From contig NZ_FTOQ01000002.1 of assembly GCF_900156805.1 (NCBI RefSeq), positions 124,001 to 188,000 on the forward strand: a stretch of 64,000 nt of DNA. Direction: 5' to 3'. Below, piece after piece: positions 6,813-37,083 of the stretch (position 1 is its first letter; every line of letters begins with the position of its first letter). The translations under genes and the position numbers were made by a program. The stretch is from Roseivivax lentus. Lineage in GTDB: Bacteria; Pseudomonadota; Alphaproteobacteria; Rhodobacterales; Rhodobacteraceae. The notes beneath the pieces are model-generated. The model did not search any database, had not been told where the DNA came from, and was given only the letters and a program-made list of their open reading frames with translations.

Positions 6813-6881
6813 GCGCGGAAACAAGGCAGCTTGCTGCCGCCGCGCCAGCGCCGGTCCGGCCGCACCGGACTGGCGCTTTGG
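6813..6881 (+). repeat. Palindromic intergenic repeat, family A, copy 1
   Basis: About 69 bases that recur at 25483-25550. The order is GCGCGGAAACAA, a small palindrome GGCAGC-TT-GCTGCC, then a long stem with outer arms GCGCCA/TGGCGC and inner arms GTCCGG/CCGGAC, ending in TTTGG. The second copy has different bases in the palindrome and inner stem, but pairing is kept. This copy lies between maeB and the convergent flavoprotein gene. The 310-base gap (6689-6998) holds nothing else I recognise. Confidence 0.7.
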
Positions 6882-6998
6882 TGACGTGGGCGCGCGGTTC
6901 GACCGGTGCGATGACCTGACGAAATAAAGCGCGCAAATCAGTCGAAGCTGCGCCACTCCGCCGGACCGGCGCTGGCGCAGCTCATTTCCTGTGGCGGC

Positions 6999-23368: not shown

Positions 23369-23679
23369 ATCGGCTTCGATCGCCGGCAGCGTCTGTCATC
23401 ACGGCATCCAGGCGTTGAATGGCGCACCAAAGGCGCTGTCTCGAGGCAGCTTGCGACCGCCCCCGCCCGGCGCCTTCCCGCGCCAACTTATCGCAGGTGC
23501 GCCGACATCGAGTGGCACACCTTCGGCGGGACGGGCCGGCGCTGCGTCCCGGCCGGTGCGACGCTCCTTCCGTGCGGCGGCCATCAAAGCAATCAAGCGC
23601 TGCCGTTCGACAATCGCCGCGCCATCCTGCGGACAGGCGTATCCGAGGTTGGTGCGGAGGGGGCCGAGACCCGAAAGTC
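23369..23679. other. Intergenic gap with no recognisable gene
   Basis: 311 bases between the convergent rlmB and adenine deaminase genes. I see no tRNA, clear terminator or family A/B repeat. One open frame continues past the adenine deaminase stop on the minus strand, but its translation resembles nothing I know and it has no start context. Confidence 0.4.
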
Positions 23680-25374
23680 TCAGGGGATCAGCTCGAACCG
23701 GGTCACATCGACCATGCCGCGATCGGTGATCTTCAGCGCCGGGATCACCGGCAGGGCGAGGAAGGCCAGTTGCAGGAAGGGCTCGTTCAGAGTCACGCCC
23801 AGGCCTTTTGCCGCAGCGCGCAGCGCTTCCAGATCGGCGCGGACCTCTTCGAAGGGCGCGGGGCTCATCAGGCCCGCGACGGGGAGTGCCAGCTCGGCCA
23901 GCACCTTGCCGTCGCGGACGACGCAGAAGCCGCCCTCGATCTCCGAAAGGCGGGTCGCGGCGCGCGCCATGTCGGCGTAATCGACACCGACGCAGGCGAT
24001 GTTGTGGTGATCGTGGCAGACGGTCGAGGCGATGGCCCCGGCTTTGAGGCCGAAGCCGCGCACGAAGCCCGTGGCGATATTGCCGTTCTTGCCGTGCCGC
24101 TCGATCACCGCGATGCGGGCGAGGTCGCGGGCGGGATCGGGGCGCTTGTCGCCGTCCTCTGGGGGCACGTCCTCGGTCAGGTGATCGGTCAGGATCTGGC
24201 CTTCGCGGATGCCGATGACCGGCGTCTCGGCGCGGTTGCCGGGGGCGCGGAAGCTTTCGGGCGCGAGCGTCGGTGCATGGACCGAGTGGCGGCCCACCGG
24301 AGGGATCGTGTCGCGCGCCGCGAAGGCCGCGTCGTCGACCACCACGCCGCCTGCGATGACCATCTCGGCGCGGCACTCCGCGAGGTCGGGCAGCGCCACG
24401 ATATCGGCGCGCAGGCCCGGCGCGATGAGTCCGCGATCCTTCAGCCCGAAGGCCTCCGCCGCCGACAGCGATGCCGCGCGATAGGCCGCGAGCGGCGGCA
24501 CCCCGAGGCCGATGAGCGTGCGGATCATGTGATCGAGATGCCCTTCCTCGCCGATATCGAGCGGGTTCCGGTCATCGGTGCAGAGGCACATATAGGGGGC
24601 CGTGCGTTCGGTCAGCAGGGGAGCCAGCGCGTGCAGATCCTTCGAGACCGAGCCTTCGCGGATGAGGACGCGCATGCCCTTCTGCAGTTTCTCGCGCGCC
24701 TCCTCGGGGCTCGTCGCCTCATGCTCGGTGCGGATGCCGGCGGCGATATAGGCGTTGAGATCCTTGCCCGAGAGCAGCGGGCAATGTCCGTCCACATGCC
24801 CGCCCTCGAAGAGCCGCAGCTTCGCCATGGCCTGCGGGTCGCGGTGGATCACGCCCGGGTAATTCATGAATTCCGCAAGCCCGATGCCCGAAGCGTGGTG
24901 CATCAGCGGTTCGAGATCGGCGGCGGTCAGCTCCGCACCCGCGGTCTCCATATTGGTCGAGGGCACGCAGGAGGACAGCTGCACGCGCAGATCCATCAGG
25001 AGGTGCTGCGCGGCTTTCTGGAAATAGCGGATGCCCTCTGCGCCGATGACATTGGCGATCTCGTGCGGGTCGCAGATCGCGGTGGTGATGCCGAGCGGGG
25101 TCACGCAGCGGTCGAACTCGAAGGGTGTCACGAGGGAGGATTCGACGTGCAGATGCGTGTCGATGAAGCCCGGCACGAGGGTGAGGCCGGTCACGTCGAT
25201 GACGTTGGTGGCGTCGTATTCGGCGCAGGTGCCGACGATGCGGTCGCCTTTGATCGCCACGTCGCCTTCAAGACGCTCGCCGGTGATGAGGTCGAGAATC
25301 TGCGCGCCGCGCAAGACGATGTCGGCGGGCTGGTCACCGCGCGCAGCGGCGATACGGGTGGCGAGGTCGGACAT
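23680..25374 (-). CDS. ade: Adenine deaminase
   Basis: 564 residues, typical for bacterial Ade (amidohydrolase fold plus C-terminal domain). Motifs: [14 protein letters not shown] (metal HxH), [52 protein letters not shown] with the metal-binding Asp, and [12 protein letters not shown] near the C-terminus. Reaction: adenine to hypoxanthine + ammonia, cytoplasmic. The 383-base upstream region (25375-25757) separates it from the flavoprotein gene and holds a family A repeat. Confidence 0.94.
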
Positions 25375-25482: not shown

Positions 25483-25550
25483 GCGCGGAAACAAGGCTGC
25501 TTGCAGCCGCCGCGCCAGCGCCTGCCCGTCCCCGCGGGCTGGCGCTTTGG
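25483..25550 (+). repeat. Palindromic intergenic repeat, family A, copy 2
   Basis: Same order as 6813-6881: GCGCGGAAACAA, then GGCTGC-TT-GCAGCC, then outer arms GCGCCA/TGGCGC with inner arms GCCCG/CGGGC, ending TTTGG. Both inner stems differ from copy 1 by paired changes. The remainder of 25375-25757 shows no other feature I recognise. Confidence 0.7.
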
Positions 25551-25757
25551 AGCCTTCAGTGCTGCCGTTCCTTCTGCGGAGGAACGTGACATTCATAAAG
25601 CGCCTGCGCTCGTCCGGTGCAGCCCCATCCTCCGGTGCAGGCGCGTCGACGTTGCGTTGCCGGGGAGGTCTCTCCGCTCATTCTGTGCAGAGCCCTCCGC
25701 CGGGCAGGCGTGGGAGGTCTCGCATCCGGCTCCGGGCACAGGCGGCGCTTGGCGCGG

Positions 25758-35833: not shown

Positions 35834-35908
35834 CCCTGCGGCCTCTTTGGGGAGGGTCGCCAAAGACAAGAGCCGGGCCAACCGGTCATATGGACACAAG
35901 AAGGACCC

Positions 35909-36050
35909 GCGACCGGCAACCCGGCGCATCTGACCCCGCGACCGGAAAACCGGCGCATCTGACCCCGCGACCGGAAAGCCGGCGCATCTGACCCCGCGAC
36001 CGGAAAACCGGCGCATCTGACCCCGCGACCGGAAAACCGGCGCATCTGAC
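35909..36050 (+). repeat. Five tandem 29-bp repeats upstream of dctP
   Basis: The core CGGCGCATCTGAC starts at 35922, 35951, 35980, 36009 and 36038, exactly 29 bases apart. The linking sequence CCCGCGACCGGAAAAC carries a small palindrome, CCGG-AAAA-CCGG; one unit has AAAG and the first has a CAAC variant. The last unit ends just before the AAGGAG ribosome site of dctP, so the array sits in the 5' leader of the TRAP genes. Units are contiguous with no spacers. Confidence 0.9.
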
Positions 36051-36063
36051 AAGGAGAGACGAC

Positions 36064-37083
36064 ATGAAGATGACCCTGATGGGCGGCGCGCTGGCCTCGA
36101 CGCTGGTGCTGGCCGCGGCGGCGCAAGCGCAGGAACAGACGATCACCGCGGTGCACGCCTTCCCCGAGACGCTGATCTACACGCAGAGCTTCCTCGATTT
36201 CGTGGAGAAGGTGAACGCGGCGGGCGAAGGCGTCATCCAGATCGACGTGCGCGGCGGACCCGAGGCCATCGGCATGTTCCAGCAGCCCGACGCGGTGCGC
36301 AACGGCGTGGTCGACATGGTCTATACGCCGGGCTCGTTCTATGCGGGCGCACTGCCCGAGAAGGACGCGCTTGTCGCCTCCAACCTCACGGCGATCGAGA
36401 CCCGCGAGAATGGCGGCACCGCGCTGATCGACGAGATCCATCAGGAAAAGATGGGTGTGAAATATCTCGGCTGGTTCGATTCGGGAGTCTGCTACAACCT
36501 CTGGACCCGCGACGCGCCGACGCTCGACGAAGGCGGCAATCTCGACGTGTCGGGCCTGAAGCTGCGCGGCAACGCCGTCTACAACGCCTTCTTCACCGAT
36601 TATCTGGGCGCGCAGGTGATCGACCTGCCCACGACGGATGTCTATTCGGCGCTGGAGCGTGGCGTGGTGGATGCGACCGGCTGGACGCAGATCGGCCTCA
36701 TCGACCTCAAGTGGAACGAGTTCCTGAACTACCGGATCGAGCCCTGTTTCTTCTCGACCGATCTCGGCGTGATCGTGAACCTAGAGACTTGGGAGGGCCT
36801 GTCGGACGAGGCCAAGACCATCCTGCAGGATCAGGCCATCGCGCATGAGGCGGCGTCGGTCGAGGCGCTGAAAGCCAAGCGCGACGCGGATTTCGCCGCG
36901 CTCGACGAGCAGGGCATGCAGGTCGTCGAGCTGGAAGGGCAGGCGCGGGCCGATTACCTTGCTGCCGCGCGCGAGAAGACCTGGGCGCGCATGGAAGAGC
37001 AGATGCAGCAGCATCCCATGGGCCTCGAGAATTACGACACCCTGATCGGGCTCTTCTACGATCTCGAAAAGGCTGGCGAATAA
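36064..37083 (+). CDS. dctP: TRAP transporter solute-binding protein (DctP family)
   Basis: 339 residues. Signal peptide MKMTLMGGALASTLVLAAAAQAQEQ. The body is a DctP fold with VDMVYTPGSFYAGALPEKDALVAS, and GLKLRGNAVYNAFFTDYLGAQVIDLPTTDVYSALERGVVDA, the region containing the conserved Arg that clamps the ligand carboxylate. It captures a carboxylate-type substrate in the periplasm for DctQM. A strong AAGGAGAG ribosome site follows the 29-bp repeats. As part of the plus-strand arm it probably imports the substrate handled by the catabolic enzymes. Confidence 0.92.
   Translation: MKMTLMGGALASTLVLAAAAQAQEQTITAVHAFPETLIYTQSFLDFVEKVNAAGEGVIQIDVRGGPEAIGMFQQPDAVRNGVVDMVYTPGSFYAGALPEKDALVASNLTAIETRENGGTALIDEIHQEKMGVKYLGWFDSGVCYNLWTRDAPTLDEGGNLDVSGLKLRGNAVYNAFFTDYLGAQVIDLPTTDVYSALERGVVDATGWTQIGLIDLKWNEFLNYRIEPCFFSTDLGVIVNLETWEGLSDEAKTILQDQAIAHEAASVEALKAKRDADFAALDEQGMQVVELEGQARADYLAAAREKTWARMEEQMQQHPMGLENYDTLIGLFYDLEKAGE

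Follow-up and report, generated by a model that had tools for sequence, protein, structure and literature searches.

A dispersed foldback element family of Rhodobacteraceae with likenesses to REPINs

ERIC and Correia elements, which are MITE-like, are dispersed through intergenic DNA, carry inverted repeats and in some copies contain internal insertions. In IS200/IS605, the ends are defined through guide base pairing within the element. REPINs are described in the excerpted text of Bertels and Rainey 2011 (PMC3116915) as REP doublets that form hairpins, and the first residues of the 16-mers in the GI doublet lie 71 bp apart. Another group of REPs, tagged by CGTC, is presented in excerpts of PMC3733652 as mostly alphaproteobacterial, arranged in inverted dimers and without a known dedicated transposase. 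These REPs are defined by the CGTC tag at one end and a stem of 8 to 9 bp that begins with AT. Such families are reported there for all alphaproteobacterial orders, and the main text of that paper, figures aside, contains no word starting with Rhodobacter, Roseo or Paracoccus.

The window analysed here, a 64-kb stretch of the Roseivivax lentus genome, holds three copies of a foldback element of approximately 165 to 175 nt, at 6813-6981 (copy 1), 25483-25644 (copy 2) and, in decayed form, 23423-23640 (copy 3). In its size, intergenic dispersal, inverted repeats and insertions inside some copies, the element resembles ERIC and Correia elements; unlike these, it has no target duplication (25 copies from genome G068) and no parent transposon that we could find, and its inverted repeat is subterminal on the 5' side. 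With REPINs and BIMEs, as far as the excerpts of PMC3116915 describe them, it shares a pair of palindromic units that are inverted about a spacer and can form one long hairpin or a clover fold, compensatory changes, extragenic dispersal, and tandem clusters that include the flanks. Unlike the REPINs of those excerpts, the foldback element is longer (~165 nt), contains an extra hairpin (H1), a third, exchangeable strand and a box in the linker, and has neither a GTAG/GTGG foot nor, in the tested genomes, an associated RAYT or a cognate RAYT flanked by an element unit. The element works like a REPIN, but we do not file it as one, because two defining REP features, the tag and the RAYT, were tested and not found. 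Like the CGTC REPs of the PMC3733652 excerpts, it forms inverted dimers in alphaproteobacteria and has no known dedicated transposase; unlike them, it carries CGTC at chance level only and has stems that begin with GCGCC or TCGCC rather than AT, in a comparison with those excerpts. Since CGTC REPs without a known transposase are reported in those excerpts for all orders of the class, a missing mobiliser has a precedent, and the foldback element may be distantly related to them.

The family is not described in Rfam or, among the matches listed, in the open-licence literature, where a search for a description of the repeat found none. At the gathering score, the whole window matched only a tRNA in Rfam, and three loci searched at E values up to 1 gave three matches far below the gathering score, one of which (UCA1, 18.7 of 80 bits) lies partly over the element.

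Anatomy and maintained base pairing

A first-pass annotation had described copies 1 and 2 as a structured repeat at 6813-6881 and 25483-25550. Both copies lie there, and their letters agree with the palindromes (GGCAGC/GCTGCC versus GGCTGC/GCAGCC) and inner stems (GTCCGG/CCGGAC versus GCCCG/CGGGC) given for them. Folding exceeded that of shuffled sequence at 6813-6881 (z -3.86, 0/200 shuffles as good) and at 25483-25550 (z -2.38, 6/200), and the 30-nt core shared by the copies matched twice within the window and never in 100 shuffles. The hairpins are thus real, but the element had been halved, since the 69 nt noted are its 5' part alone and the most exactly covarying pairing (A with C) reaches beyond them. 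The core pattern matches 13 places in the genome (a reversed control pattern, 0), and in an alignment of these with their flanks, similarity extends approximately 90 to 100 nt beyond the core on the 3' side. From 5' to 3', the element runs through hairpins H1 and A-B and a middle hairpin that varies, followed by a GATAAAGCGC-like box and a C'-C part that is the A-B hairpin in inverted copy.

All three copies in the window are on the + strand. The H1 hairpin of copy 1 (6813-6845) has an outer stem GCGCGG/CCGCGC (strands h1 and h1'), an asymmetric internal loop (AAACAA/G) and an inner stem GGCAG-CTTG-CTGCC. Arm A (GCGCCGGTCCGG, 6848-6859) pairs locally with arm B (6865-6877) in the stem noted earlier, as judged by letters and folding. 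The middle hairpin (6889-6912, limits approximate) comprises helices 4 and 5, which are weak, with 74% and 61% of cells paired, and is followed by the conserved unpaired box GAAATAAAGCGC at 6921-6932, which most copies have in the GATAAAGCGC-like form. Letters and covariation identify arm C' (6949-6959) as an imperfect partner of B, and arm C (CCGGACCGGCGC, 6961-6972) matches A as its exact reverse complement, a relation that recurs across the family. The terminal strand h1'' (TGGCGCAGC, 6973-6981) is complementary to the h1' region at 8 of 9 nt; copy 1 retains this strand, which lengthens the A-C duplex so that 6842-6859 and 6961-6978 form a perfect inverted repeat of 18 bp. When copy 1 was folded as ssDNA, the centroid structure contained this 18-bp pairing, and the minimum-energy fold was a row of local hairpins.

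Copy 2 has an H1 hairpin at 25483-25515 (inner stem GGCTG-CTTG-CAGCC), an A-B hairpin at 25517-25546 (GCGCCTGCCCG ... CGGGCTGGCGC, by letters and folding), a conserved box at 25595-25603 (ATAAAGCGC), and C'-C arms at 25621-25644 that keep 8 bp of the A-C pairing (GCGCCTGC/GCAGGCGC); h1'' is absent. Copy 3 scores 49.9 bits with our first covariance model (R1), and its A-B loop is enlarged. In the family alignments, the box and the H1 loop are conserved and the box is unpaired, and the linker and H1 are defined in sequence and common to many genera. Loci L004, L007, L018 and L025 have additional hairpins within the A-B loop, with sequence common to them, and loci L181, L183 and L185 of genome G066 have a small hairpin of their own 3' of arm C, resembling a mirrored H1 (for example, GGCGCCTTCGTGCC in L185). 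Elsewhere in the window, 35906-36079 holds approximately five 29-bp tandem units (CCCGCGACCGGAAAACCGGCGCATCTGAC) that each contain a small palindrome, and an ATG follows shortly after the array.

Two copies alone are insufficient to establish selection on pairing, which the first-pass annotation had proposed. Compensatory change was strong in an alignment of 55 distinct copies (A5), for which the model included A-B and not A-C. For H1, A-C and B-C' together, 92.8% of cells were paired (81.1% in shuffles), the covariation score was 0.249 (0.071) and 18 pairs had changed on both sides (11.6), values reached in 0/500 shuffles each; further pair types numbered 38 against 30.9 (1/500). Pairing fell to 34 to 46% with slid partners; neither control is perfect, in that the shuffle test is inflated by relatedness among the copies, and slid versions tend to lose against a structure derived from the same sequences. 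The outer and inner H1 stems covary over the 55 copies, with 97.7% and 94.0% of cells paired, and the local set (H1, A-B, middle and C'-C) had 87.8% of cells paired (78.0% shuffled) and a score of 0.245 (0.101).

Pairing counts over 109 copies indicate that the local A-B and the long-range A-C pairings are both maintained, A-C more exactly. Over 11 nt, arms A and C are exact reverse complements of each other in 62 copies (35 of 69 when G068 loci are set aside), while perfect Watson-Crick pairing occurs in 3 copies for A-B and in 0 for B-C'. Where G-T is allowed as a pair, the complete pairings rise to 73 for A-C and 32 for A-B and remain at 0 for B-C'. Watson-Crick cells amount to 92.6% in A-C (80.9% with swapped partners) and 84.9% in A-B (77.0%).

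The third strand was scored after 8 of the 109 rows had been dropped. Complementarity of h1'' to h1' exceeded that of swapped partners in 25 copies from other genera (6.8 of 9 nt versus 4.7, 0/400 swaps), in 38 copies of G068 (6.24 versus 5.23, 0/400) and in 7 copies of G066 (7.71 versus 5.79, 2/400). It was not significant in 27 copies from the R. lentus genome (3.59 versus 3.30, reached in 44/400 swaps) or in four copies from other genomes of the genus (243/400). In G068, 22 of the 30 copies examined, three longer loci having been left out, form one subfamily with a mean identity of 85% (78 to 95%). The inner H1 stem across 33 G068 loci reads C-G in 24 occurrences, T-A in 11 and a mixed C-A in 2, and is never mixed among the 22 subfamily copies. 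Among the G068 loci (L146-L178), the flanks of the amplified subfamily are C-rich ahead of the element and G-rich behind it; these flanks may belong to the element itself or reflect a preferred target.

Distribution and genomic context

The element is not confined to the copies reported earlier, and its covariation exceeds that of all 500 shuffles, so that neither outcome named in the first-pass annotation as a refutation arose. Building a covariance model and searching the genome and its relatives, as the first-pass annotation had proposed, gave at least 59 matches in the R. lentus genome at E values up to 1 and at least 48 below 1e-3, with model R1 and 150 of 8607 first-look candidates scored; a few of these are remnants of 67 to 92 nt. 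With the same model, seven of nine genomes of the genus were positive (43, 0, 4, 0, 1, 2, 41, 28 and 83 matches at E values up to 1e-6), and across the family 22 of 61 genomes were. A second model (R2), for which 55 copies from several genera were used, detected the element in 29 of 41 genomes sampled from the order, which all belong to one family, and in 20 of their 28 genera. Copies were counted at E thresholds of 1e-3 in the family set, 1e-6 in the genus set and 1e-4 in the order set. A class-wide search of 289 genomes was positive in 3, which belong to the same family; with 9 candidates scored per genome, this result speaks weakly for an absence from other families.

Matches outside the genus are mostly 150 to 170 nt long. 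A Roseivivax halotolerans record has a 174-nt copy identical to one in genome G062, and further named carriers are Sulfitobacter noctilucae and an uncultured Shimia. Plasmids of Salipiger abyssi and S. profundus contain copies, and two Pseudosulfitobacter plasmids have partial matches. These named carriers suggest that the element family belongs to Rhodobacteraceae. A match on a Sphingobium plasmid was taken as chance, being weak, under a TolC gene and covering 27% of the query, and phage records gave 0 matches.

With a simple codon-based gene caller, neighbouring genes allowed 45 of 53 loci to be classed (three tandem arrays were counted twice): 24 lie between convergent genes, 20 between tandem genes and 1 between divergent genes. 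The other eight comprise six that overlap a called reading frame and two without a neighbour. In a background of 1.69 Mb (the window and loci L215-L301), convergent pairs make up 17 to 19% and divergent pairs 16 to 25%, depending on the gap cut-off, so that convergent gaps are favoured (p 4e-8 to 8e-7 by cut-off). At gaps of at least 100 bp, the convergent excess and divergent deficit had Fisher p values of 2.5e-7 and 1.3e-4. Between tandem genes, the element is oriented along both genes in 10 cases and against both in 10, with one array counted twice. In deposited Salipiger annotations, 3/3 elements lie between convergent genes.

Copy 1 lies between convergent genes for malic enzyme and a protein with Nuo51-type domains, and copy 3 between genes for SpoU methylase and adenine deaminase (by Pfam), which are likewise convergent. 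The neighbours of copy 2, encoding an FAD-binding protein and adenine deaminase, are both on the - strand; its overlap with a reading frame stems from the longest-ORF start (25596), and an ATG at 25374 puts the element outside the gene. The copy at locus L040 sits past a terminator-like hairpin downstream of a gene that, by eye, we take to be infB.

Mobility and competing explanations

Flanks of six copies were searched for orthologous sites within the genus. The copy 1 site is empty in G062 and occupied in G067, the copy 2, L040 and L048 sites are occupied in G067, and the L057 and L059 sites are empty there. The element is missing from all three empty-site alignments, in which divergence of the intergenic DNA is too great for exact junctions to be read, and an empty site may reflect a loss as well as a gain. 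Copies in tandem clusters are spaced 191 to 376 bp apart, start to start.

We consider the family to be, with fair probability, a non-autonomous, REPIN-like mobile DNA element. REPIN- or BIME-like mobile DNA fits better than a cis-acting RNA because the element is mostly intergenic, favours convergent gaps, shows no preferred orientation, is clustered in tandem and is missing at some orthologous sites. The first-pass annotation had left the structure as RNA or cruciform; the even orientation between tandem genes (10 versus 10) and the preference for convergent gaps lean toward DNA. Two REP-like imperfect palindromes (A-B and C'-C) stand inverted around a linker of approximately 70 nt, with H1 as an extra 5' hairpin. 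As ssDNA, the element could fold into local hairpins in a row or into a single long one that pairs A with C and B with C'. Strand h1' could switch partner from h1 to h1'' at the 3' end. In this reading, the element would move as ssDNA, and an enzyme encoded elsewhere would recognise its paired ends. A more specific version, itself rather doubtful, is that the whole family is foldback DNA moved by three-strand exchange, in which h1' would act as a guide strand that pairs with h1 or h1'', so that the ends would be defined by self-pairing, much as with the guides of IS200/IS605, and the enzyme would lie outside the Y1 family.

Several observations count against mobile DNA. Among 25 G068 copies there was no target-site duplication, the sole signal being the covarying h1/h1''. 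The replichore strand bias that single-strand transposition might give was not significant in G067, G366, G360 and G009 with free arcs (p = 0.20, 0.60, 0.60 and 0.21) or GC-skew arcs (p = 0.14, 0.68, 1.0 and 0.11; pooled p = 0.12 for 106 copies in the four genomes). Isolated REP-like units look rare, unlike those of classic REPs: the C unit matches 15 places with up to 2 mismatches, 14 of them inside whole elements. In addition, B-C' is fully paired in none of the 109 copies, h1'' is not significantly kept in the R. lentus genome, and no transposase was linked to the element in the tested genomes.

The REP-associated transposase that the first-pass annotation had suggested looking for did not appear: PF01797 (Y1/RAYT) was not found in the R. 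lentus genome, and of 28 tested genomes that carry five or more copies, 24 likewise lack it. Y1_Tnp occurs in the other 4, as compared with 5 of 28 tested genomes without copies, in a tally that leaves out G357 and G374 (5 copies each), and none of 12 Y1 loci in nine genomes has an element nearby. RAYT/IS200 (PF01797) was rejected as the mobiliser, being absent or unassociated in the tested genomes. Within 8 nt of the four feet of 101 copies, GTAG/GTGG occurs 0, 0, 4 and 3 times (0.2, 1.6, 7.7 and 1.8 expected from shuffled letters), and CGTC, with the TGTC and CCTC variants left out, occurs at 0, 1, 5 and 3 (1.4, 1.4, 3.2 and 1.4 expected). A gene recurring at the tandem clusters was also considered and rejected: 132 called proteins from 16 regions in six genomes gave four cross-genome pairs; no transposase was recognised among the genes common to these regions, in a transposase family survey that covered Y1 only.

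An unlikely alternative is a structured non-coding RNA, either trans-acting or a 3'-end element, that has been multiplied and in which the local hairpins and the long-range pairing form a switch. That both sets of helices covary, that the unpaired box and H1 loop are conserved and that most matches outside the genus span 150 to 170 nt would be consistent with such an RNA, as would the excess of G-T pairs over A-C letter mismatches on the + strand in the A-B (51 versus 6) and middle (51 versus 23) helices. However, the A-B excess is confined to a few columns of an asymmetric unit, and it is absent from the H1 (2/7), arm A-C (3/11), B-C' (12/25) and C'-C (3/5) helices. The even orientation between tandem genes, the range from 0 to 83 copies within one genus and the lack of an Rfam match of weight also argue against an RNA.

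It is decidedly improbable that the repeats are a by-product of chromosome upkeep, in which template switching keeps hairpins complementary and the hairpins serve as bidirectional transcription barriers between convergent genes. Template switching could yield the exact complementarity of distant arms, and 24 of 45 classed loci are in convergent gaps (17 to 19% expected), but dispersal to many sites and a sequence-defined linker and H1 common to many genera would be left unexplained, and the L040 copy is already beyond a terminator-like hairpin. A classic REP or BIME mobilised by a RAYT since lost from these genomes is very improbable: two inverted REP-like units and tandem clusters recall REPINs as excerpted in PMC3116915, but the GTAG/GTGG foot is overall no commoner than in shuffled letters, and the element is not associated with Y1 genes.

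The foldback repeat represents an abundant repeat family of marine bacteria with sharply defined anatomy. With it, the spread of untagged or CGTC-type REPs without a RAYT becomes a testable question, in that the missing enzyme can be sought by comparing genomes of the same genus that have 0 and 83 copies.
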